The notes below the pieces were generated by a model. The model was given only the letters and a program-made list of their open reading frames with translations. It ran no database searches and was not told the origin of the DNA. DNA of 64,000 bases from Alkalibacillus almallahensis. Lineage in GTDB: Bacteria; Bacillota; Bacilli; Bacillales; Alkalibacillaceae. Shown here one piece after another: positions 6,701 through 58,080 of this stretch. A program made the translations under genes and the position numbers. Numbering within the stretch: the stretch's first letter is position 1; every line of letters starts with the position of its first letter. The stretch spans positions 62,001-126,000 of the forward strand of contig NZ_JAASRU010000005.1 of assembly GCF_011761495.1 (NCBI RefSeq), read 5' to 3'.

Positions 6701-7414
6701 AAAATCCTGAATTGTCGGTAGCGTTTCTTGAGCTTTAGCATACTCTAATTTCTTCGTGGTTTCTTTTTCAATCTCTTCACTTAAAACAGGCGCCTCAAGA
6801 ATTGTATCATAACGATTTCTCGCTGTTTCAATATCTCCTTCTTGATGTTGACCTGTGGCCCAATTAAGCAATAATTTAGCAGATCTATGTACACCTTCAA
6901 TAATTTGATCATTTTCAGGGTATTGCTTATAAGCCTCAATATAGGATGCTAACATCCCGGAAGCTGTTCTTTTGGAATCAGCAAGCTCTATCCATTCATC
7001 TACAGATTTCTGAGATTCATTTTTTTCAGTATTTGAGTCTGTGACTTCACCTTGTTTGTTCGATTCTGTATGCTCTTCTTGCAAATTAGAGGAAGTGCTA
7101 TTGTCCTGTTTACTGGAATTTTCATTTTCTTCTTGTGTATTTGATTCTGTGTTATCATTCTGGTCCTTCGTATCTTCTGTTGTTTCCTCTCCACTTGATT
7201 CTGTGCTATCATTCTGGATTTGCGGATCTTTTGTTGCTTCTTCTCCACTTGATTCCGTGTTATCATTCTGGGTTTGCGGATCTTCTGTTGCTTCATCTCC
7301 ACTTAATTCCGTGTTATCATTCTGGGTTTGCGGATCTTCTGTTGCTTCTTGTGCTTGAATTTCAAAAGTAAAAAACAAACTTAATACAATAATACAAACA
7401 AATAATTTTTTCAA
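3767..7414 (-). CDS. Secreted zinc carboxypeptidase (M14) with long repeat region
   Basis: A 1215-residue exported protein. Residues 1-22 are a signal peptide (MKKLFVCIIVLSLFFTFEIQ, cleavage after an AQA-like site). Residues 22-140 are an acidic low-complexity stretch built from 18-residue units containing ATEDPQTQNDNTE. Residues 140-890 are helical repeats with the recurring pattern WA..H..G....A..RY..IL. The C-terminal 310 residues are an M14 domain: zinc motif HAREH near residue 972, the YHSSGE histidine, and the catalytic glutamate in TIEISPYT near residue 1178. The catalytic set is complete, so activity is likely; peptidoglycan stem peptides or environmental peptides are possible substrates. 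Translation starts at TTG, seven bases after AAAGGAG. A block of about 195 residues is repeated almost exactly in the middle, which indicates recent internal duplication. Confidence 0.85.
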   Translation of the reverse strand: MKKLFVCIIVLSLFFTFEIQAQEATEDPQTQNDNTELSGDEATEDPQTQNDNTESSGEEATKDPQIQNDSTESSGEETTEDTKDQNDNTESNTQEENENSSKQDNSTSSNLQEEHTESNKQGEVTDSNTEKNESQKSVDEWIELADSKRTASGMLASYIEAYKQYPENDQIIEGVHRSAKLLLNWATGQHQEGDIETARNRYDTILEAPVLSEEIEKETTKKLEYAKAQETLPTIQDFKKQADTLRKASLLVELYEEAQQIYPNNTDIIERLEDSASSLFEWAKSQQEATEYKTAVNRYERILGITSVSDELKKKVNHHLNYASQDQRTPDQQYNLAKNSRTASRMLELYTTGYGLYSEDDRFEEGVIQASRNLLNWATGQHQEGDIETARNRYETILEAPVLSEEIEIETTKKLEYAKAQETLPTIQDFKKQADTLRKASSLVELYEEAQQIYPNNTDIIERLEDSASSLFEWAKSQQEATEYKTAVNRYERILGITSVSNELKDKVNHHLNYASQDQRTPDQQYNLAKNSKTASRMLELYSTGYELYSEDDRFEEGVIQASRNLLNWATGQHQEGDIETARNRYETILDAPVLSEETEKETTKKLEYAQNGEILPTVQDFEKDFNDTNIASQQLEIAIEAYVLYPKSEVVNQILETSQSNLLDWATDQHQEGKIETARNRYEKVLDSPIVSELVKSEAENKLEYAKDNQKLPEEKYFISLIENSGIASEHLEIANEGYTLYPESKRLQEVLQDSQITLLDWATSQHQSGRIEVAKKRYEKVIKSYTVSSKIKAEAEFKLQLSEQGKVIDSVSDTITKVENSVKASTRLNYLENGIKIHPRNEEIKRLMNSNAKNLYAWAQEKHQTGQFDTAINRYNKILNLKHVNNSLKEEVRDKLSLAENSDRIHPIGDIINSSGEYSYSEMANDITLLENTYPDLVKTEIIGQSVDRRNLYAVKLGHGDKEIFLNGSHHAREHMTTNVLMEMMDVYAESYELNQNVDGYDVRGLLNNVSIWFVPMVNPDGVMLVQEGAYSASNPSKVIELNNGSRDFTSWKANVRGVDLNRQYPAGWENIRDNSGTPSSERYKGYKPLSEPETKALADFTNSHDFMTTVAYHSSGEIIYWHYNNPSSTFYRDEQIASNVGTITGYEPVDPTPNPSGGGYKDWFVEDKNLPGMTIEISPYTYGEPVPLSYWPSIWNENRSVGLYLAKEALNR
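5600..6850 (-). repeat. Internal tandem duplication within the M14 peptidase gene
   Basis: The coding block starting LLNWATGQHQEGDIETARNR and running through the EYKTAVNRYERILG and RTPDQQYNLAKNS segments occurs twice in nearly identical form, with a third partial copy. The period is about 195 codons (about 585 bp). Differences are mostly single residues such as NSR/NSK and TTGYG/STGYE. The near-identity at DNA level points to recent duplication or gene conversion. Confidence 0.8.
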
Positions 7415-12797: not shown

Positions 12798-13664
12798 TTA
12801 TTCCTCCTCAACGACACGAACATTCGAGCCATCTTCAATCGTTAATTGACCACTTGAAATGACCGCATCGTCTGCTGCGAGTTGTTCATCTTCTACTTCA
12901 ATCGCTGTTTCGGCGGATTGTTTTTGAATAATTGAAACGTTAACTTCTTTTGCTTGCCCATCTTCCATGATAAAGACAAATGATTGGCCACTGCGCTCAA
13001 TCACCGCTTCAGTCGGTACAATTAAAGCATTTTCCGCTACGACATGATCGAGTTGAATTTGGCCAGTTAAACCTGATGGAATCGTGTCATCGGGTTGGTC
13101 AGCTTCTGCTTCGACATTAAACATGCCGTTATCACTTGTGCTGCTCGCTACATATGTGATTTCTGCTTCACCTGTAGCATCAGCTTGTGACACGTCATAA
13201 GTCACCGTGTCGCCTTCAGAGAAAAGATTGCGGTTTGATTGTGTGACCTGGAATTGGAAAATCATCGGGTCACGGTCGATCACCATTCCTGCAGGTTCTT
13301 CTGTTGTTAACATGTCACCTTCTGCATAATTAAAATTTGTTAATAAACCGTCCATTGGCGCTACTAACTCTAGTAAGCCACGTTGTGTTTGGTATTCTAA
13401 TAACACATCGTCTTCTTCCACTGTTTCCCCGCGCTCTGCCATGACTTCTTCAACTTCACCAGCAGCTTGAGCCATGACTGGCGATTGGTCATTCGGCATA
13501 ACACGCGCTGAGAACGAACGGGTTTCTGTGAAATCTTCTTGTTTCACTGCCACCGTTTCAACTGGCGTTTCTGTTTCAACATCTTCTTCTTCATCTTGGC
13601 TTTCGCCACTACATGCCGCTAACACCATTAGAGCTGCGACAAGCATAATCATCCATTTTTTCAT
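12798..13664 (-). CDS. RND efflux adaptor lipoprotein (HlyD/MFP type)
   Basis: A 288-residue lipoprotein. The signal peptide ends in the lipobox VLAAC, giving a lipid-anchored cysteine on the outer face of the membrane. The mature part has a short acidic linker, a biotinyl-lipoyl-like hairpin (VMAQAAGEVEEVMAERGETVEEDDVLLEY ... LVAPMDGLLTNFNYAEGD) and a C-terminal beta-barrel and membrane-proximal region (GLTGQIQLDHVVAENALIVPTEAVI). This is the periplasmic-adaptor architecture that in Gram-positives works beside an RND pump without an outer-membrane channel. The ATG at 13664 fits an AGAGGTG ribosome site; a GTG 9 nt upstream is too close to it. It sits between tetR (11 nt) and the permease (3 nt). 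Confidence 0.85.
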   Translation of the reverse strand: MKKWMIMLVAALMVLAACSGESQDEEEDVETETPVETVAVKQEDFTETRSFSARVMPNDQSPVMAQAAGEVEEVMAERGETVEEDDVLLEYQTQRGLLELVAPMDGLLTNFNYAEGDMLTTEEPAGMVIDRDPMIFQFQVTQSNRNLFSEGDTVTYDVSQADATGEAEITYVASSTSDNGMFNVEAEADQPDDTIPSGLTGQIQLDHVVAENALIVPTEAVIERSGQSFVFIMEDGQAKEVNVSIIQKQSAETAIEVEDEQLAADDAVISSGQLTIEDGSNVRVVEEE

Positions 13665-14658: not shown

Positions 14659-14880
14659 GCGCTCAATTAATTGGGGTAGCGCTCATTTATTTTGTGAATC
14701 GGCCAATTAATTGGGAGAGCGCACATTTATAATGCGAGTCGCTCGTTTAATTTGGATGGCGCTCATTTATGATGTGAGTCGCTCTTTTATTTCCGAGAAC
14801 GCTCTTTTATGATGTGAGTCGCTCTTTTATTTCCGAGAACGCCCATTTTTGCCGGAACTCGATCTTTTATTTCGACCTAC
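14659..14880. repeat. Intergenic tandem array, family III (GCGCTCWTTTAT core), about 11 units
   Basis: About eleven imperfect units of 18-22 bp, best seen at 14750-14850 where GCTCTTTTATTTCCGAGAAC and GCTCTTTTATGATGTGAGTC alternate. Each unit begins GCGCTC or GCTC followed by an A/T-rich core and a variable end. Several units contain a short inverted repeat (CTCA...TGAG or CTC...GAG). The array occupies most of the gap between the comK terminator and the tetR promoter. No credible coding sequence is present. Confidence 0.85.
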
Positions 14881-18901: not shown

Positions 18902-19903
18902 TTAAACAATTTTGTCTTTCGGTAACTTATCAATATTCTCAAGCATAATGCCTGTTCCTTGTGCGACACAGTTCATTGGTTCTTCCGCAATAAAGACAGG
19001 AACTTTCAATTCTTCTGCAAGCAGTTGATCAATACCGTCTGTAAGCGCACCGCCACCTGTAATAATGACACCGCGGTCAATAATATCAGCTGATAATTCT
19101 GGTGGAGTTGTTTCGAGAACGGTTTTCGTTGCTTGTACGATCATCGAAACTGACTCTCGTAATGCCTCTTCGATTTCTTCAGAATGTACCGTAATGGTTC
19201 TCGGTAAGCCTGAAACTAAGTCACGTCCACGAATGTCTAAGGATTCATTACGATTACCTGGGAAAACCGTGCCAACATTGATCTTAATATCTTCAGCTGT
19301 TCGGTCACCGATTAATAATTTATATTTGCGTTTGATATACTGCAAAATTTCGTGGTCAAATGTGTCACCAGCCATCTTAATCGACTGGGATGTGACAATA
19401 TCACCCATACTGAGGACTGCAACATCCGTCGTACCGCCACCGATATCGACGACCATATTTCCGCTTGGTTGGAAAATATCCATACCAGAGCCTACTGCCG
19501 CAACTTTCGGTTCTTCTTCTAAGTAGATCTTCTTACCGCCTGATTTCTCAGCCGCTTCTTTGATCGCTTTTTGTTCGACTTTTGTTATGTTTGTTGGGCA
19601 GCATACTAAAATGCGCGGTTTTGAAAACATGCCACGTACATTAATTTTTTCAATAAAATGGCGTAACATCGCTTCAGTCACGTCAAAGTCAGCGATCACA
19701 CCATCTTTAAGTGGACGAATAGCCTCAATATTTCCTGGTGTACGACCGACCATTTTGCGCGCTTCATCGCCGACTTCTAAGACTTTGCCCGTGTTTTTAT
19801 CCATTGCAACAACAGATGGCTCGTCTAACACAATCCCTTTACCTTTAACATGAATCAATACGTTCGCCGTTCCTAAGTCAATCCCGATATCTCTTGCAAA
19901 CAT
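18902..19903 (-). CDS. mbl: Rod-shape-determining actin homologue Mbl
   Basis: A 333-residue MreB-family protein that forms membrane-associated filaments guiding lateral wall synthesis. It starts MFARDIGIDLGTANVLIHVK with the phosphate-1 loop of the actin fold, then VVDIGGGTTDVAVLS (phosphate 2) and ITGGGALTDGIDQLL (adenosine region). The ATG at 19903 is preceded by GAGG. The longer frame upstream is not supported because it would pass through the ribosome site. Its position next to flhO and downstream of the spoIIID neighbourhood identifies it as mbl rather than mreB or mreBH. Confidence 0.95.
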   Translation of the reverse strand: MFARDIGIDLGTANVLIHVKGKGIVLDEPSVVAMDKNTGKVLEVGDEARKMVGRTPGNIEAIRPLKDGVIADFDVTEAMLRHFIEKINVRGMFSKPRILVCCPTNITKVEQKAIKEAAEKSGGKKIYLEEEPKVAAVGSGMDIFQPSGNMVVDIGGGTTDVAVLSMGDIVTSQSIKMAGDTFDHEILQYIKRKYKLLIGDRTAEDIKINVGTVFPGNRNESLDIRGRDLVSGLPRTITVHSEEIEEALRESVSMIVQATKTVLETTPPELSADIIDRGVIITGGGALTDGIDQLLAEELKVPVFIAEEPMNCVAQGTGIMLENIDKLPKDKIV

Positions 19904-20040
19904 GTAACCTCGCTCCCCCTGCTTTTTTCCTATATATTCACGTTTTATATACATTAATTCTATTCTATCATTTTATCACTATTTTCCTATCATGTCATGC
20001 CCTTTTTCGTATCATTGTGACAATTTACTATATGATAAAA

Positions 20041-20086: not shown

Positions 20087-20254
20087 TTTCGCCGTATGTG
20101 GTTCTGATTTCGCCGTATGAGTACTGTTTTTCGCTGTATGAAGCAGAAAAATCGCTGTATCTGTGTTGTTTTTCGCTGTATAATGTGGGGTTTTCGCTGT
20201 ATTCGGGTGATTGATCGCCGTATCATGAAGCGATTTCGCTGTATCATTCACCAA
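20087..20254. repeat. Intergenic tandem array, family I (TTTCGCTGTAT core), 8 x 21 bp
   Basis: Eight consecutive units of exactly 21 bp start at 20087, 20108, 20129, 20150, 20171, 20192, 20213 and 20234. Each begins TTTCGCYGTAT (two have AAT/GAT in place of TTT) followed by 10 variable bases. The last unit overlaps the final codons and stop of the acyl-CoA dehydrogenase gene. Because 21 is a multiple of 3, the minus strand reads as an open frame with DTAK-like heptads, which is a by-product of the period. Confidence 0.92.
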
Positions 20255-21890
20255 CAATCGTCTCAAAATGACGTAAATGGAGATCCGTCACGTCCTCAGG
20301 CTGGAACGTGTTATGCACATAAACTTCCGCAACAGCTAGGCTACGCGCATCGTCCACTGCTTCAAGCGCGACCACTGCTTCATAAATCCGTGTCATGTCG
20401 TCTGTTATTTGCTTCGGATATTTAAGCATCAGGGATTCATCTCTCTCTGCCAGCGTTCCGAGTTTAGCTCGAAGCTGCTCTACTGCATTAACGACAGGTT
20501 CGGCAATCTCTGCGACTTTACCTGTCATAGCAGTTAATCGTTCACTCATTTCTCTCAAAAATGCCTCGTGCACACGGTATTTTTTCATTAACCGCAAAAC
20601 TTCTAAACCTAAAATATTCGCTGTTCCTTCCCAAACAGTTAACACTTGGGCATCGCGCAGTAATCTTGGTGTGACAAAGTCTTCTATATAGCCGTTTCCG
20701 CCGTGCATCTCAATCGCTTCATGAGCAAAAGCAATTGATTGGTCAGCGGTTTCTTTTTTCAATAAAGCGATATACAGACGGAGCATCGCTTGGTCATGTT
20801 CACTCGGCTCACATCCTTTCGGCATCACTCGGTCGAATAATTGAATCATTTCGAATGACGCACGCATCTCGACTTCCCATTTCACCGCTAGATTCACGAG
20901 GGTTTCTTGGACCATTGGATAATCGACGAGTCGACCGCCAAACGCTTCTCGGGAAAAAGCGTAATCCCGCGCTTCACGGTATGCACGGCGCATAATCCCG
21001 AGCGATGCTACCGTATTACAAACACGCGATAGATTAAGGGCTTCCATCATATATTTGAAACCTTGCGAAGCATCGCCGACCAGGTAAGCCGTCACCCCGT
21101 CGAATTCCACTTCCGCTGATGGTACCGCGCGCACGCCGAGTTTGTCTTTTAAGCGACGCACAGATAGCTGCCCCGCTTCACGATTTTCTTCCCAAGGCAC
21201 ACAGAACAAACTTAATCCCTTCGTCCCAGATTCAGCGCCTTCAATTCGGGCGAGCACCATGGCCACGCCACACATGCCGGCATTACTAGCAAAATATTTT
21301 TCACCGGTAATTCGATAATGATCACCTTCTTGAACCGCTTCAACGACATTCGCGCCAACATCTGATCCACCTTGGCGTTCGGTTAAAAAAGTCGCTCCCT
21401 CGTAAAGTTCTGTGTCGCCTGTTGCAAGCACATGCGGTAGAAAGCGCTCGCGGACGTGATCATCGGCGTAATGATCAAGTAAATATGCGGTCGCTTGGGT
21501 TAAGGTGACTGGACAATAAAACCCAGGTTCGGACTGAGATAATAAATAGCCTTGCGCAAAGGAATAGGCGTAATTTCCTGGTTGACCCAGTTCAGGAATC
21601 GGTTTATGCACGTAACCGACGATCCCAGTTCGGTACGTTTCGTCAACGGTTTGCTTGTAGCCTTCATTCACCCAAATACGACTGACGTCATTGCCCCATT
21701 TGTCGTACTTGATTAATTGTGGCTGACCCGTTCGATCGGTATGGGCTGCACGTTCGTCAATGTCGGTCGCCACACGCTCTCCGAATTCTGTTAGCGCTTG
21801 GTCCGCGTATTGATACAAGTTTTCTGGTAGTTGTTCTCGTAAAATCGATTGTATGACAGAGTCGTCATGGTAGAAATTCGGTTCGGTCAT
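20244..21890 (-). CDS. Acyl-CoA dehydrogenase, AidB-like subfamily
   Basis: A 548-residue flavoprotein, longer than the usual 380-residue acyl-CoA dehydrogenases. It resembles the AidB-like class, with an extra N-terminal helical part. Visible motifs are ATFLTERQGGSDVGANVVEA (FAD-binding region), IEMHGGNGYIEDFVTPRLLRD, and VWEGTANILGLEVLR containing the catalytic-base glutamate. It should be an FAD-dependent acyl-CoA oxidising enzyme; the chain length is not predictable. The ATG overlaps the stop of the upstream ligase by 4 nt (ATGA). With the ligase and a MerR regulator it makes a probable fatty- or branched-acid degradation operon inserted between spoIIID and mbl. The 3' end runs into the 21-bp repeat array. 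Confidence 0.88.
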   Translation of the reverse strand: MTEPNFYHDDSVIQSILREQLPENLYQYADQALTEFGERVATDIDERAAHTDRTGQPQLIKYDKWGNDVSRIWVNEGYKQTVDETYRTGIVGYVHKPIPELGQPGNYAYSFAQGYLLSQSEPGFYCPVTLTQATAYLLDHYADDHVRERFLPHVLATGDTELYEGATFLTERQGGSDVGANVVEAVQEGDHYRITGEKYFASNAGMCGVAMVLARIEGAESGTKGLSLFCVPWEENREAGQLSVRRLKDKLGVRAVPSAEVEFDGVTAYLVGDASQGFKYMMEALNLSRVCNTVASLGIMRRAYREARDYAFSREAFGGRLVDYPMVQETLVNLAVKWEVEMRASFEMIQLFDRVMPKGCEPSEHDQAMLRLYIALLKKETADQSIAFAHEAIEMHGGNGYIEDFVTPRLLRDAQVLTVWEGTANILGLEVLRLMKKYRVHEAFLREMSERLTAMTGKVAEIAEPVVNAVEQLRAKLGTLAERDESLMLKYPKQITDDMTRIYEAVVALEAVDDARSLAVAEVYVHNTFQPEDVTDLHLRHFETIVGE

Positions 21891-23401
21891 GATGTCGAAA
21901 CCTCCTCACGTAATTGTTGTCGGAGTAATTTACCTGTCGCATTTCGAGGCACTGCATCAACCACTTGATAGAGTTTTGGAATTTTGTAGCTTGCGAGTTG
22001 ATCTTGGAGAAATTCGGTTAAGCTCATTTCAATCGCTGGATCATCCTCCGTCGTTACCACAAATGCTTTCACCGTTTCGCCCCATTCAGCATGTGGCACG
22101 CCAATCACTGCGACATCATCGACATTCGGATGCTGCATGATTACCTTTTCAATTTCAGTTGGGAAAACGTTCACGCCACCTGAGATGATCACGTCTTTCT
22201 TACGGTCGATCACCCAGAAATAGCCGTCCTCATCTTGCATGCCAATATCACCTGTATAAAGCCAGCCATCAACGAGCGTTTCAGCTGTTTTCTCAGGGGC
22301 TTTATAATAAGCTTGCATCGTTCCTTCTCCTCGCAAAATGATCTCGCCTGGCTCACCTCTCTGAACGTCTTGACCATTTTCATCAACTAAACGAATCTCG
22401 CAATTTAACGCTGCGCGCGAGCCAATACTTCCAGCTTTCTCATCATGTTCTTCAGGTAATAATAATGTGCCATTCGGTCCCGCTTCAGTTAAGCCATAAA
22501 CACACATGAGCCGGTCGGTATCAAACGCCTTTTGCACGAATCGTACTTCATTTGCTCCAAGAGGCGCCCCGCCGTAGACCCAGTATTCCATCGAGGATAA
22601 ATCGTACTGGCTCACTTCTGGATGTTTCGCTGTCATCAGATAAGCCACGGGCGCACCAAAGAAATGCGTCACCTTCTCTTGTGATACCATTTGCAGAAGT
22701 AAATCTGGCGTGAAAGTCGGCGCTAAGACATGCGTCGCCCCAACATATAAACCAGCCGCCATAAACAAATGCAAAGGCGCTGAGTGACTGAGTGGCATCA
22801 TGTGAAGTACGCGACTGTCTTTATTCATCGGCATCTCGATACAAATCATTGTCGCGACTGTTAAAATGCTACGATGCGTAAACACAACCCCTTTTGGATT
22901 CCCTGTAGTACCTGAAGTGTATAAAATCGACGCTTGATCATCCTCAGTCGCATCACAAGTTACTGGCGTTGGGTCGCCTTCTAATAATTCGGCAAAACTC
23001 ATCCATTTACCGTGTGCATCACCCGTTTTAATCCACGTTAACGAATTCTCATCCGCAAGACCTTTCGCTTCATCAAACAATAATTCATGCGTCGCAAAAT
23101 ACGTCGCTTCACTATGGTCGATAATATACTGCATCTCGGGCTGGGTGAGTTTGGCGTTAATCGGGATGACAATACCCTTTAAACGAATGACTGCGATGTA
23201 TAGCATCATAAATTCAGGAACATTCGGCATGTGAATGATTAATTTGTCACCTGGTTGAAATCCTAATTGCGTTAATTTGTTCGCAATGGCATTCACCGAA
23301 TCATCCCACTGCTTATAAGAAAAACGAGATTGTTGCGCAACTAAAGCCTCATGCTCGGGAAATTTACGTGCTTGATGGGCCAATAATTCAGATAGATTCA
23401 T
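21887..23401 (-). CDS. Acyl-CoA synthetase (class I adenylate-forming)
   Basis: A 504-residue ATP-dependent ligase that activates a carboxylic acid to its CoA thioester through an acyl-AMP. The P-loop-like motif ILYTSGTTGNPKGVVFTHRS, the YGLTEAGPNGT motif, GWLYTGDIGMQDEDGYFWVIDRKKD and the C-terminal lysine in VPRNATGKLLRQ (catalytic for adenylation) are all present. It is most like medium/long-chain or aromatic acyl-CoA ligases; the substrate is not readable. The ATG at 23401 overlaps the merR stop, with GGAGGATG upstream. It supplies substrate for the dehydrogenase encoded next. Confidence 0.9.
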   Translation of the reverse strand: MNLSELLAHQARKFPEHEALVAQQSRFSYKQWDDSVNAIANKLTQLGFQPGDKLIIHMPNVPEFMMLYIAVIRLKGIVIPINAKLTQPEMQYIIDHSEATYFATHELLFDEAKGLADENSLTWIKTGDAHGKWMSFAELLEGDPTPVTCDATEDDQASILYTSGTTGNPKGVVFTHRSILTVATMICIEMPMNKDSRVLHMMPLSHSAPLHLFMAAGLYVGATHVLAPTFTPDLLLQMVSQEKVTHFFGAPVAYLMTAKHPEVSQYDLSSMEYWVYGGAPLGANEVRFVQKAFDTDRLMCVYGLTEAGPNGTLLLPEEHDEKAGSIGSRAALNCEIRLVDENGQDVQRGEPGEIILRGEGTMQAYYKAPEKTAETLVDGWLYTGDIGMQDEDGYFWVIDRKKDVIISGGVNVFPTEIEKVIMQHPNVDDVAVIGVPHAEWGETVKAFVVTTEDDPAIEMSLTEFLQDQLASYKIPKLYQVVDAVPRNATGKLLRQQLREEVSTS

Positions 23402-23787
23402 GATTCATCCTCCTCCAATTGATTTAATTCGTCGTAAAACACTTGCATCAAGGATTCCATTTCGCCTTTCATCGCTTGCAGTTCATGAATTCGTTGGTCG
23501 ACTTCACTAATCTTCCCCTCGCCATATTCGATCGTGCGTCTTAACTGTTCACGTCCAGTCGGATCTTCGTCGAATAAGAGCACCATTTCTTTGATTTCAT
23601 CTAGATTGAAACCATATTTCTTACCACGAAATATGAGCTGTAGCTGGGTCACTTCTTTTTTCGTGAATTGACGGTAGCCACTGTCATTCCGTTCTGGTTT
23701 CAGCAGGCCGATTTCTTCATAATAGCGAATCGTTCTAGTTGTGACATTAAAATAGTTAGCGAGTTCCGAGATCGAATAGCGAGTCAT
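23398..23787 (-). CDS. MerR family regulator of the acyl-CoA operon
   Basis: A 129-residue regulator. Residues 1-70 are a MerR winged helix-turn-helix (YSISELANYFNVTTRTIRYYEEIGLLKPERNDSGYRQF). A dimerisation coiled coil follows (residues 80-125). There is no cysteine cluster, so it is not a metal sensor; small MerR proteins of this kind next to acyl-CoA dehydrogenases and ligases (LiuR-like) respond to acyl-CoA intermediates. It is the first gene of the operon and overlaps the ligase start by 4 nt. Its promoter has the unusual 19-nt spacer that MerR proteins need for activation (see 23828-23858), so it probably regulates its own operon. Confidence 0.88.
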   Translation of the reverse strand: MTRYSISELANYFNVTTRTIRYYEEIGLLKPERNDSGYRQFTKKEVTQLQLIFRGKKYGFNLDEIKEMVLLFDEDPTGREQLRRTIEYGEGKISEVDQRIHELQAMKGEMESLMQVFYDELNQLEEDES

Positions 23788-23827
23788 GTTTACCCTCCTT
23801 TTATTTTCAAAATATTCTTATATTTAA

Positions 23828-23858
23828 AGTTTAACATTGACGTTAACGTGAAGTTCAA
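23828..23858 (-). promoter_or_regulatory. MerR-type promoter with 19-bp spacer and palindromic operator
   Basis: On the minus strand TTGAAC (23853-23858) is separated from TAAACT (23828-23833) by exactly 19 nt. The spacer contains the near-perfect palindrome TTGACGTTAACGTGAA (23837-23852, plus-strand reading, one mismatched pair). An overlong spacer with a centred palindrome is the classic MerR activator arrangement. It lies about 40 nt upstream of the merR start. Confidence 0.75.
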
Positions 23859-23900
23859 TCATTTTTCTAAAACAAGTTGTCCTAACATGACACATAAAAC

Positions 23901-23930
23901 GAGCCTGCCTCGTCTAACTATGGCAGGCTC
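23901..23930 (-). terminator. Intrinsic terminator of spoIIID
   Basis: GAGCCTGCC (23901-23909) pairs with GGCAGGCTC (23922-23930), 6 nt after the spoIIID stop, followed by GTTTTATG on the minus strand. Confidence 0.85.
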
Positions 23931-23936
23931 AAGAAA

Positions 23937-24194
23937 CTAGACGCTACTTTTCTCGCTGTACTTCTTTTTCGTCGCTTCACCACCTCGCAAATGTCTAATC
24001 GACTTATGGTAATGCAACACGTATTCAACTTCTTTGGCTAGGACGGGATTAATCGTAGGTAAACGCTCAGTCAGATCTTTATGGACGGTGCTCTTTGACA
24101 CGCCAAATGACTTCGCGATAACTCGGACCGTTTGACGTGTTTCCAATAAATGCTCAGCGATCTTGATTGTTCGTTCTTTGATGTAATCATGCAC
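23937..24194 (-). CDS. spoIIID: Sporulation mother-cell regulator SpoIIID
   Basis: An 85-residue DNA-binding protein that represses or activates mother-cell genes between the SigE and SigK stages. The sequence HDYIKERTIKIAEHLLETRQ, then TVRVIAKSFGVSKSTVHKDL (helix-turn-helix), TERLPTINPVLAKEVEYVL and HKSIRHLRGGEATKKKY, is nearly identical to the B. subtilis protein. It starts at GTG (24194), eight bases after GGAGG, as in B. subtilis. A SigE-type promoter lies upstream. In B. subtilis spoIIID is close to mbl; here an acyl-CoA operon of about 3.5 kb is interposed. Confidence 0.97.
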   Translation of the reverse strand: MHDYIKERTIKIAEHLLETRQTVRVIAKSFGVSKSTVHKDLTERLPTINPVLAKEVEYVLHYHKSIRHLRGGEATKKKYSEKSSV

Positions 24195-24239
24195 ATCACT
24201 CGCCTCCTGAGGTGTTGACACTTAAGGTGTTGATGGTAC

Positions 24240-24268
24240 ATTTTATTCACGGATTTGTGTGATTATGC
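24240..24268 (-). promoter_or_regulatory. SigE-type promoter of spoIIID
   Basis: GCATAAT (24262-24268), a 14-nt spacer, then AATAAAAT (24240-24247) on the minus strand resemble the SigE consensus (GCATATT-like -35, CATACAAT-like -10). It lies about 46 nt upstream of the GTG start, which suits the known SigE control of spoIIID. Confidence 0.6.
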
Positions 24269-24296
24269 TAATGGGTGGAAGTTGGATGTTTATCAG

Positions 24297-24464
24297 TTTC
24301 GCTGTATCAGGGACTGGTTTCGCTGTATAAGCGAGAAGTTTCGCTGTATCGAGCACTGATTTCGCTGTATCGGGCACTGATTTCGCTGTATAAGCGAGAG
24401 ATTTCGCTGTATCGGGCACTAATTTCGCTGTATGAGTGAGAGGTTTCGCTGTATCCGGCAAAAT
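24297..24464. repeat. Intergenic tandem array, family I (TTTCGCTGTAT core), 8 x 21 bp
   Basis: Eight units of exactly 21 bp start at 24297 and end at 24464. Every unit carries the invariant 11-mer TTTCGCTGTAT followed by 10 variable bases. The variable parts fall into two types, about CGGGCACTGA and AAGCGAGAGA, in roughly alternating order; the AAGCGA type makes TCGCT-gtata-AGCGA hairpins. It lies between the spoIIQ terminator and the spoIIID promoter. It matches the array at 20087 in core, orientation, period and unit number. Confidence 0.95.
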
Positions 24465-24552: not shown

Positions 24553-25230
24553 TTATTTGAATTGTGGATTAACGGGTTCACCGTTTTCGAGTAGTCGGAA
24601 GTGGACTTTTGTCACGTCTTCATCAGAATAAACATTTGATCCTGAATGACCAATGACTTCACCTTGAGTAACGTCAGCGCCTTCTTCTACTGAGACTTCT
24701 GAAAGACTTGCGTAGAATGTTGAGCGTTCTTCGTCGTGTTCGATCTCAATTGTTTGGCCGAGAAGTTCGTCCTCTTCAACTGAGACGACGGTTCCGCTTA
24801 GAGCTGCGATCACGTCAAATGATTCATTGTTTTGAGATGTAATGTCAACGCCTTGGCTTTGGTAGTACTGATTATTGTAAAAAATGAGCGCGTCTTCTTG
24901 TTCTTCTGCTGAAGCCTCTGTGTCGTAGAATGGTGTCATGACTTCTACATCGTCACCAAGTAACACTGGCATGACAAGATCTTCTGATTCTGCTACAACT
25001 GGTTCAGCCGCTTCATCGCCACCTTGTGCTTCTTGATTTTCTAAATCATTTTGCTCGACACTCCAGTTGAACTCATCGTCTCGTTCAGCTTCGTCATTAC
25101 CGACAAATTGAAACGTGAGTACACCTGCTAAAACAACCGCGACGAGCGTGACGTACAAGGTCGGGTAAAACCAGCGTTGACGTGTGAGTTTCTTCCACTT
25201 CGACTCACGGAACATGTTTCTTTCCTTCAT
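24553..25230 (-). CDS. spoIIQ: Forespore engulfment protein SpoIIQ
   Basis: A 225-residue forespore membrane protein whose extracellular domain pairs with SpoIIIAH across the engulfment space. A short cytoplasmic N-terminus (WKKLTRQRWFYPT) is followed by one transmembrane helix (LYVTLVAVVLAGVLTFQFVG), an acidic linker, and a LytM/M23-like domain (FDVIAALSGTVVSVEED ... VTQGEVIGHSGSNV ... VHFRLLENGEPVNP). The HxxxD zinc ligands of active M23 peptidases are absent, so the domain is a binding module rather than an enzyme, as in the B. subtilis protein. The ATG at 25230 is set by GAGGTG six bases upstream. A SigF-type promoter precedes it. Confidence 0.92.
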   Translation of the reverse strand: MKERNMFRESKWKKLTRQRWFYPTLYVTLVAVVLAGVLTFQFVGNDEAERDDEFNWSVEQNDLENQEAQGGDEAAEPVVAESEDLVMPVLLGDDVEVMTPFYDTEASAEEQEDALIFYNNQYYQSQGVDITSQNNESFDVIAALSGTVVSVEEDELLGQTIEIEHDEERSTFYASLSEVSVEEGADVTQGEVIGHSGSNVYSDEDVTKVHFRLLENGEPVNPQFK

Positions 25231-25248
25231 TTTCATCACCTCAGCAAC

Positions 25249-25278
25249 CATTCTGACCGGAAAAGGTGATGAATATAC
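25249..25278 (-). promoter_or_regulatory. SigF-type promoter of spoIIQ
   Basis: GTATA (25274-25278), a 15-nt spacer, then GGTCAGAATG (25249-25258) on the minus strand fit the forespore sigma consensus GYWTA-N15-GGNRANANTW at most positions. The gene start is 18 nt further on. Confidence 0.7.
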
Positions 25279-28870: not shown

Positions 28871-29017
28871 TATATTTAACAGTTCAACTCAATTGTTAAA
28901 TAATCCTGTTAGATTGTTAGACAATCCCACTCGATTGTTAAACATTCCCGCTAGTTTGTTTAACAATACCTATAGAATGTTAAACAATTCGTCCGGATTG
29001 TTTAACATTTTCACTGA
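28871..29017. repeat. Intergenic tandem array, family II (ATTGTTWAACAAT core), about 7 x 21 bp
   Basis: Six clear 21-bp units start at 28892, 28913, 28934, 28955, 28976 and 28997. A more degenerate unit starts at 28871, and traces lie further left. The consensus is ATTGTTWAACAATnCnnnnnG. The core is itself an inverted repeat (ATTGTT/AACAAT). The array fills the space between the atp operon terminator and the ywzB promoter. The stretch 28749-28870 shows nothing else identifiable. Confidence 0.92.
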
Positions 29018-38621: not shown

Positions 38622-38768
38622 GTTATTTCACAATCGCCGCACATTGTTTCATAATCTTGTGGGATTGTTAAACACTTCAGCGAGATTGTGAAATAATCCC
38701 GGCAGAATGTTTAACAAAGTTGAGCGTTTGTTTAACAATCGTGCGAGAATGTAAAAAACGACAGCGCA
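38622..38768. repeat. Intergenic tandem array, family II (ATTGTTWAACAAT core), 7 x 21 bp
   Basis: Seven 21-bp units start at 38622, 38643, 38664, 38685, 38706, 38727 and 38748. The consensus is ATTGTTTMAYAATCnnGnnnG, with TTTAACAA and TTTCATAA/TTTCACAA variants of the core. The last unit runs into the upp terminator. The array occupies the gap upstream of the protease gene. Confidence 0.92.
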
Positions 38769-45757: not shown

Positions 45758-45990
45758 GGCGCACATATTGGGGTCTGAGTCGCACATTTAATAGTCGAGG
45801 GCGCTCTTTTATTTTTGAAGTCGCCCAATTATTTCAAAAAGCGCTCTTTTATTTGATTAAAGACACTATTATTTCAAAGGGCACTCATTTATTTTGTTAG
45901 GCGCACTATTCTGGAAGGAAATTACTCATTTATTTTCATTGCCACACAATTAATTGAAATCGCGCTCAATAACATCAATCATTACACCGC
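45758..45990. repeat. Intergenic tandem array, family III (CGCTCTTTTATTT core), about 11-12 units
   Basis: Degenerate units of 19-22 bp with cores such as CGCTCTTTTATTTTTGAAGTC, CGCTCTTTTATTTGATTAAAG, CACTCATTTATTTTGTTAGGC and interleaved GCCCAATTATTTCAAAAAG types. Same family as 14659-14880, including the alternation of two unit types. It fills the gap between the divergent spoIIR and acetyltransferase genes, upstream of both coding regions. Confidence 0.82.
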
Positions 45991-46575: not shown

Positions 46576-46722
46576 TTTGTTTAACAATGCGTGGAGATTG
46601 TTTAACAATTGAGTGAGATTATTTCACAATTGAGCTGGATTGTTTCATAAACGAACAAGATTGTCTCACAATCGAGAAGAATTGTTTCATAATTGAACAG
46701 GATTGTCTCATAAAATAAGAGA
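46576..46722. repeat. Intergenic tandem array, family II (ATTGTTTMACAAT core), 7 x 21 bp
   Basis: Seven units of exactly 21 bp start at 46576, 46597, 46618, 46639, 46660, 46681 and 46702. The core varies between ATTGTTTAACAAT and ATTGTYTCAYAAT. The first base follows the acetyltransferase stop codon directly, and the last unit runs into the shared terminator. The array would therefore be in the 3' UTR of the plus-strand transcript. Confidence 0.93.
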
Positions 46723-51341: not shown

Positions 51342-51565
51342 AAAAACACCACACTTTTATGAAATTTTATTCGTTTATATATTGGAAATAAGTTTGTTTG
51401 GGTTGTCAATTCTATGTGAGAAGAAATAGTTATATGAGGTATAACTGTTATATTGTATCGTGTTTTTACGTTTTAGGCAAGGTGTTCAGTTGGTGTAAAA
51501 GGGAAGTCTGCATGTAGTACTGCAGACTTCAAATATTCATAGCTTTTCTAATGACCGTTGTCGAT

Positions 51566-51754
51566 ATTGTGATTCGCTTTCGGTGGACGCTTTCCGCGGG
51601 CACGGCTCGAGCCTCCTCGGCCTAAAAGCGTGGCCTGCGGGGTCTCGAGACACGTGCTTTTCCTGTGACGGCCCGGACGGCCTAATGTCGACGTTGGTCA
51701 CAGGACGTGACCGCACTTAGTCGACCAGGAGTCGCCACCTTCGCTTCTCACAAT
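51566..51754. repeat. GC-rich MITE-like intergenic element, copy 2
   Basis: A 189-bp GC-rich element in the 477-nt gap between glpX and rho. ATTGTGA (51566-51572) and TCACAAT (51748-51754) mark inverted ends. It shares GGGCACGGCTCGAGCCTCC (from 51598) and TGCGGGGTCTCGAGAC (from 51636) with copy 1 at 41578, in the same order and spacing. It has an additional segment at about 51662-51727 that is not present in copy 1, including CACAGGACGTGACC. Apart from this, 51342-51565 and 51755-51818 show no gene. Confidence 0.75.
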
Positions 51755-51818
51755 TCAACAACTATGAGCTTTAACTAATACGTCAAATCAACGCTCAGTT
51801 ATAACAATTCTATATTCA

Positions 51819-57904: not shown

Positions 57905-58080
57905 GGCGCTCGCCGTTATATTTCGGCGAACGCTGAAATATTTGCTGAGGCGCCGATATATTCTAGAGGGCGCCGTTATTTCTGAGATGGCGCCGATAAA
58001 ATTTTGAAGGCGCCGTTACCGCTTATTTATCGGCGCTATCATATACGAAGACGCTTATATACCAAAAATATCGGCGACTC
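57905..58080. repeat. Intergenic tandem array, family IV (GGCGCCGTTATWT core), about 8 x 20 bp
   Basis: Units of about 20 bp such as GGCGCCGATATATTCTAGAG, GGCGCCGTTATTTCTGAGAT and GGCGCCGATAAAATTTTGAA. The core GGCGCCG(T/A)TAT contains the palindrome GGCGCC four times; outer units are more degenerate (CGGCGCTATCATATACGAAG). It lies between the icmF terminator and rpoE. The remaining sequence at 57775-57904 must contain the rpoE promoter. Confidence 0.88.

Follow-up and report, generated by a model that had tools for sequence, protein, structure and literature searches.

Why do two matching tandem-repeat arrays stand on either side of spoIIID and an acyl-CoA operon in Alkalibacillus almallahensis? 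The question arose from a 64-kb stretch of the genome (assembly GCF_011761495.1, contig NZ_JAASRU010000005.1, positions 62,001 to 126,000), here called the window, in which array 1 (20087-20254) and array 2 (24297-24464) each consist of eight units on the + strand, with all steps of 21 bp, just as the initial annotation had described them. We found that intergenic arrays with a period of 20 or 21 bp form a wider class in this bacterial family, and that arrays 1 and 2 are two of many. On the strength of their sequence patterns, we consider it reasonably probable that the arrays act at the DNA level as protein-binding platforms phased at two helical turns.

Arrays 1 and 2 share the core WWTCGCYGTAT, which defines family I. 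At up to one mismatch, TTTCGCTGTAT had 14 matches in the window, none of which was located outside the two arrays, as compared with a mean of 1.77 and a maximum of 5 in 100 shuffled sequences. The common core that had been proposed was exact in all eight units of array 2, but in array 1 it was exact in only 4 of the 8 units, the others containing TTTCGCCGTAT (two units), AATCGCTGTAT (one) and GATCGCCGTAT (one). The spacers of array 1 were random, with a mean pairwise identity of 0.29. Array 2 contained higher-order repeats of 42/63 bp and related spacers (identity 0.48), and has therefore partly grown by duplication. The source genome of the window (G000; 2.71 Mb, 36 contigs) contained 92 family I units in 14 arrays, which is 12 arrays besides arrays 1 and 2. 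A search of 60 genomes with a two-unit pattern, allowing at most one mismatch, identified family I only in this genome and in its congener A. salilacus (G005). Beyond family I, G000 contained families II (GATTGTYWRACAATC, 21 bp), III (CGCNCWNTTATT, 20 bp) and V (GGCGCCGWTAT, 20 bp).

In most arrays, the common part was confined to a core of 8 to 13 bp, the spacers were random, and adjacent spacers were unrelated. Nine of the 14 family I arrays, including arrays 1 and 2, lack the flanks of a miniature inverted-repeat transposable element (MITE). In the 59 units of these nine arrays, positions 3-6 and 8-11 contained 1.75 to 2.0 bits of information with no more than 0.13 bits at positions 14-19, and the spacer identity was 0.334 within arrays, 0.316 for adjacent units and 0.298 between arrays, with 0.313 expected from composition. 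The corresponding values for Filobacillus (177 units, 32 arrays) were 0.277, 0.279, 0.286 and 0.290. Adjacent units were not more alike, as slippage would predict, in either Filobacillus or family I, the exceptions being array 2 and the arrays of the closed relative G018. Taking in steps of 12 to 34 bp, the spacing was 21 bp in 112 of 117 steps in Filobacillus, in 61 of 63 in family I and in 82 of 84 in family II (both strands counted), and 20 bp in 14 of 15 steps in family III and 49 of 55 in G018. In families I and II, as in Filobacillus, an array usually had 5 to 8 units (~105-170 bp), and in G018 up to 21. With random spacers and little drift in length, the arrays are therefore unlike the products of slippage.

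To a de novo scan of the window and 113 further loci for arrays of five units with periods of 14 to 30 bp, at thresholds above every shuffle, the same two periods stood out. Outside long open frames, 171 arrays were found, of which 108 had a period of 21 bp, 32 a period of 20 bp and 31 any other period, so that periods of 20 or 21 bp accounted for 140 of the 171 intergenic arrays, far above any other period from 14 to 30. A further 96 arrays were located in long open frames (34 with period 21 and 5 with period 20); of the arrays in such frames, 62 were set aside by rule. A coding repeat was rejected as an explanation; families with a period of 20 bp exist, and the arrays sit between genes. Spacer identity in the 140 arrays was 0.285 compared with 0.280 expected, a figure that is lowered by the picking of core columns per array and that includes some coding repeats and duplicate regions. 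The scan contained regions that were present twice (L043/L129 in Filobacillus and L045/L126 in A. aidingensis), and the G000 and G005 loci had been selected around arrays. Per 100 kb, arrays with a period of 20 or 21 bp numbered 24.7 in family loci selected by spoIIQ and 2.8 in other Bacillales loci, and 13.3 and 10.4 in the largely array-selected loci of G000 and G005, respectively. None was found in 299 kb taken from the beginnings of contigs in 20 further genomes of the order; 100 kb of Escherichia coli contained one.

The comparison with A. salilacus provided a measure of constraint. In 20 pairs of orthologous arrays, the key core positions differed at 5 of 477 sites (1.0%) and the spacers at 104 of 869 (12.0%), which is ~11-fold less change at the key positions (p = 2.9e-15). 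The test was limited to pairs with less than 30% divergence, and comprised 17 pairs of family II, 1 of family I and 2 of family III. Outside the test were also L183, L032 5188 and L186 16533, for which no ortholog was available, and the window array at 24296, the ortholog of which is odd. The key positions had been picked from G000, and we reckon that this ascertainment could, at the very most, lower their rate by about half; the observed 1.0% lies far under half of 9% to 12%. Because of the difference between 1.0% and 12.0%, the core and the phase look to be under selection. The suggestion of the initial annotation that selection has acted on the core, beyond recent slippage, agrees with these rates and with the mostly unrelated adjacent spacers.

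Arrays 1 and 2 are accompanied in the window by six arrays of like build and other cores, making eight in total:
14660..14879, + strand: family III array, core CGCNCWNTTATT, 20 bp, 11 units (~3 units in A. salilacus)
28892..29017, no strand assigned: family II array, palindromic core GATTGTYWRACAATC, 21 bp, 6 units
38622..38747, no strand assigned: family II array, 6 units
45781..45962, + strand: family III array, 20 bp, 9 units
46576..46722, no strand assigned: family II array, 7 units
57909..58028, + strand: family V array, core GGCGCCGWTAT, 20 bp, 5 units found
Rfam gave no match over the window arrays. At all 8 sites, A. salilacus contained an array or, at site 14660, a remnant, and the turnover of sites is therefore slow. 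The core was identical between the two species at 7 of the 8 sites; upstream of spoIIID, at the site of array 2, an array with the core ATACCATCGAGTT in A. salilacus replaces family I. Cores thus differ between genera and, at this site, between sister species. It was also noted that the end of L123 and the start of L120 in A. salilacus both fall between spoIIQ and spoIIID near a ATACCATCGAGTT-type array, and gene order suggests that the two contigs adjoin.

The segment between arrays 1 and 2 and the genes around it are arranged as follows:
18902..19954, - strand: mbl (MreB_Mbl)
20087..20254, + strand: array 1 (family I; eight units of 21 bp, core WWTCGCYGTAT), in the gap between the acyl-CoA dehydrogenase (ACAD) gene and mbl, overlapping the 3' end of the ACAD gene
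20244..21890, - strand: ACAD, with AidB_N and Acyl-CoA_dh domains
21887..23401, - strand: AMP-binding enzyme, acyl-CoA ligase-like
23398..23787, - strand: MerR-family regulator
23937..24221, - strand: spoIIID
24297..24464, + strand: array 2 (family I; eight units of 21 bp), in the gap between spoIIQ and spoIIID
24553..25251, - strand: M23 peptidase, which we take to be spoIIQ, going by gene order
Array 1 reaches into the ACAD gene, its last unit overlapping the stop codon (20244-20246), and the gene product is 93% identical to its counterpart in A. salilacus.

Flanked as it is by two arrays of the same core and orientation, the segment had been thought to be open to mobilization or deletion by recombination between these direct repeats. 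The merR-ligase-dehydrogenase genes were located between spoIIID and mbl in complete form in G001, G002, G005, G008 and G020 and in partial form in G003, G006 and G011. Of these genomes only A. salilacus contained family I, which was not found in G001, G002, G003, G006, G008, G011 or G020 with the two-unit pattern at up to one mismatch. The segment is thus present irrespective of family I, and in A. salilacus the arrays on its two sides are unlike each other. Furthermore, the initial annotation had named arrays of the same family at many loci as the observation that would speak against mobility, and this is what the 14 arrays in the genome represent. Mobility of the segment was rejected by synteny, and is highly improbable as an explanation. 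The sequence comparison indicates that the segment is old in the family and was not brought by the arrays, and nothing observed singles out arrays 1 and 2 as a special pair. The gap between the dehydrogenase gene and mbl contained arrays of other cores in G001, G002, G006, G008 and G020; the place therefore recurs while the core differs. In the partial versions of the operon, in L124 (G003), L129 (G006) and L131 (G011), the ligase gene, or both merR and the ligase gene, were missing and the dehydrogenase gene was kept. In G008, the spoIIID-merR interval (L134:4079-4807) contained four ATATGNNCCC arrays, which recurred about every 195 bp.

The distribution of the arrays along the chromosome was clearest in G018, which has a closed genome of 3.33 Mb with dnaA at 2,702,486. 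The motif ATTRAKC had 183 matches in this genome and, among the matches listed, these were concentrated at 2.31-2.41 Mb, with single sites outside this domain at 0.325, 1.986 and 2.015 Mb. The domain covers ~100 kb, is located 300-390 kb from dnaA and includes spoIIQ-spoIIID-mbl. In two congeners of G018, ATTRAKC gave 3 and 4 scattered matches. Scanned de novo in segments of 20 kb, G018 contained 20/21-bp arrays in 2 of 2 segments inside the domain and in 0 of 18 elsewhere. Some of its arrays (L138:4851-6142, L215 and L216) were organized into higher-order repeats of ~263 bp, each consisting of an array plus a linker, reminiscent of satellite DNA. In six other genomes, there were 17 arrays in 75 kb at spoIIQ-mbl versus 13 in 400 kb elsewhere; the enrichment was not clear in G010 (2 in 12.5 kb versus 7 in 80 kb), G015 (1 versus 1 in 20 kb) and G021 (0 versus 1 in 60 kb). 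Among the matches listed for G000, families I to III occurred on nine contigs, plus three with MITE-borne arrays only, and were not found on contigs C1, C2, C8 and C13 (0.86 Mb, with spoVD, polA, spoIVA and secY). With arrays on nine contigs, the array region in G000 is therefore wider than the domain in G018.

Of the 31 arrays in G000 for which both neighbours were called, MITE-borne arrays included, 16 were located between convergent, 13 between tandem and 2 between divergent genes, whereas the 172 gaps of at least 150 bp in the same loci were divided into 34 convergent, 108 tandem and 30 divergent. In Filobacillus, 10 arrays were convergent, 20 tandem and none divergent, with 3 at a locus edge, although these 33 arrays occupy 20 sites and are hence not independent. 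In the same genus, 22 of 27 gene ends had a terminator ahead of the array, none had one behind it and 5 had no terminator. The orientation relative to tandem genes was consistent within families, being sense in 17 of 20 cases in Filobacillus and antisense in 7 of 8 in family I, but opposite between these families, and both strands were used in G018. In G000, family I cores were located on the lagging strand, as judged by GC skew, in 11 of 14 arrays. Strict replication polarity was dropped as a general rule; orientation flips within one Filobacillus contig, and G018 has both strands.

A constant core, a constant phase and free spacers are most simply read as cooperative binding on one face of the DNA, and it is for this reason that we favour protein-binding platforms, an idea already raised in the initial annotation and one that would fit the sequence evidence. 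Each unit would represent one site of 8 to 13 bp and, as the units follow one another at two helical turns (20 or 21 bp), several copies of a sequence-specific DNA-binding protein could line up on the same face of the helix and act in concert. We infer protein binding, with one factor per core and a fast change of specificity between species. The least certain step is the effect of binding, for which, given that the arrays cluster in a chromosomal domain, our first guess would be local organization of the chromosome or anchoring of the spoIIQ-mbl region.

Several observations weigh against this interpretation. A helically phased array is one in which a conserved site recurs at constant helical phase under selection, and the arrays conform to this description, with the spacing being mixed in G002/G003 (10 steps of 20 bp and 9 of 21) and partly mixed in G008 (34 of 21 and 4 of 20). 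The G018 arrays have partly been made by duplication, with a spacer identity of 0.469 within arrays and 0.354 expected. Core positions of lower information differed between the two Alkalibacillus species at 77 of 892 sites (8.6%), nearly as fast as the flanks (543 of 5,985; 9.1%). Two family I arrays (window 20087 and L031 13083; divergence 0.32 and 0.49) gave poor alignments to A. salilacus and were dropped from the rate test. An earlier and cruder test, now superseded by the 20 pairs with their larger number and information classes, gave no significant difference between core and spacer for families II, III and V; it gave p = 9e-16 for family I, but 2 of the 3 alignments were not unit for unit. 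As for placement, the pooled automatic calls put 36 of 140 arrays between divergent open reading frames (ORFs), which counters a general rule; we suspect that these calls stem from missed short genes, given that many of the rows are from L134 and L138 and that an ORF cut-off was applied. Finally, the terminator followed the array at 15 of 38 gene ends in G000, preceded it at 20 and was absent from 3, and where it followed or was absent the array may therefore be transcribed. The terminator counts come from our own scan without a shuffle control, and in the output of a separate scan with other limits both the ACAD and the spoIIQ terminators were missing.

Neutral minisatellites, in which slippage or unequal exchange in tolerant intergenic DNA leaves a core as residual similarity, would account for the changes in the number of whole units between the sister species. 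A gap of exactly 21 bp was found in 10 of the 17 family II pairs, and two of the 10 extra units matched a neighbour at 18 of 21 positions, although the average of 13.2 of 21 is about the level expected from core sharing alone. The related spacers in array 2 and in G018 point in the same direction. This explanation is nevertheless unlikely, as it accounts poorly for spacers that are mostly random-like while core and spacing are fixed, for the ~11-fold slower change of the key positions and for the excess of periods of 20 to 21 bp. Quite unlikely, too, is a selfish satellite or mobile element without host function, spread by a transposase or borne by MITEs. A MITE-like element with the inverted ends GTTGTTGATATTGTGA...TCACAATTCAACAAC does enclose five (L033, L036, L038, L039 and L035 8114) of the 14 family I arrays; three of its copies, array included, are 94% to 98% identical over 212-302 bp, and the arrays of G018 are locally clustered. 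Against this stand the nine family I arrays without such flanks, the A. salilacus copy of the L035 element, in which the ends are present and the array absent, and the slow turnover of the eight window sites. No matches were obtained to viral contigs with two-unit patterns for families I and II or to plasmids and phages with array 2, and for these queries a viral, plasmid or phage origin was rejected.

Two further explanations assign the arrays a role of their own. Centromere-like or polar-anchoring sites with a fast-evolving motif, serving segregation or sporulation, would be consistent with the concentration of ATTRAKC arrays and of de novo arrays on the dnaA side of the G018 chromosome. The known ram sites are GC-rich inverted repeats. 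The present arrays have many different cores and are mostly direct repeats, and a concentration on the origin side, as for dispersed ram sites, applies to the closed genome of G018 only. Of 11 genomes searched with NF009646, which we take to be the RacA model, 10 had no match and G018 matched weakly, below the cut-off; the test is a weak one, in that the B. subtilis control did match, but also below the cut-off. There is a precedent in B. subtilis, where RacA is described as binding to ram sites that are dense near the origin (PMC6593407). With the non-MITE arrays of G000 being spread over nine contigs, we regard such sites as a somewhat unlikely explanation. An RNA-level function in 3' untranslated regions, such as Rho loading, RNA stability or attenuation, would fit the many arrays that follow soon after stop codons, the within-family polarity and the terminators beyond arrays in G000. 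It is improbable in view of the Filobacillus arrays, which are mostly located beyond terminators, the palindromic core of family II and the opposite polarity across families. The C-over-G bias in the sense of the transcript was weak (positive in 41 of 65), and Rho utilization by way of a C-rich bias was rejected on this count.

Some known systems resemble the arrays in part. Plasmid iterons are direct repeats of ~20-22 bp to which Rep proteins bind, and are similar in having a conserved core repeated in tandem and in the same direction at close to two helical turns. The arrays differ in being chromosomal and present at many loci per genome; arrays 1 and 2 are flanked by spoIIID, mbl, spoIIQ and ACAD, with no rep gene among the six named flanking proteins. 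REP/BIME (repetitive extragenic palindrome/bacterial interspersed mosaic element) and other 3' intergenic repeats are likewise located downstream of genes, often in convergent gaps; the arrays differ from these in their mostly non-palindromic cores, their phase of 20-21 bp and their random spacers. Clustered regularly interspaced short palindromic repeats (CRISPR) also combine a constant repeat with unique spacers, but the repeats are 23-47 bp, with spacers of similar length, as compared to ~11 bp and ~10 bp in the arrays. A published method for finding spaced motif pairs seeks constant spacing with a variable spacer after the removal of duplications (PMC5217627), which is the pattern seen here, although the terms "Bacill" and "tandem" are absent from its main text and the present class does not appear to be described there.

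The MITE-like element was also found apart from family I. Two other copies, at window 51555-51764 and in L038, contained the Rfam Bacillaceae-1 RNA (RF01690), located at 51669-51736 in the former, so the same ends enclose five family I arrays in some copies and no family I array in others. The Bacillaceae-1 "sRNA" may thus be part of a mobile element. A tandem pair of S-adenosylmethionine (SAM) riboswitches was noted near an array locus on contig C7 (L033:7310-7622). The window also contained a 54-bp tandem repeat of 3.9 copies with 90% matches (7141-7348), and a distinct class of arrays with a period of 52-53 bp was observed in several Bacillaceae (L045:1479-3722, L050:8101-8661, L083:1-354 and 13124-13568, and L126:12318-12744).

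Judged by titles and the beginnings of abstracts, searches of the open-licence literature in PubMed Central returned no paper on arrays of this kind. A conserved motif and phase with free spacers is the signature expected of a protein-binding platform, here with many unlike cores in related genomes. A broader proposal, which we put forward as doubtful, is a fast-evolving centromere-like satellite system in many Bacillaceae, in which one origin-side domain would be marked by two-turn-phased arrays with a core specific to the species or genus, recognized by a DNA-binding anchor or organizer that co-evolves with it. If so, the motif may change wholly while position, phase and the build of the arrays persist. 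If the arrays are platforms, they would imply one or several new DNA-binding factors of fast-changing specificity, perhaps with an effect on a chromosomal domain, and would offer a bacterial parallel to the rapidly evolving satellites of centromeres.

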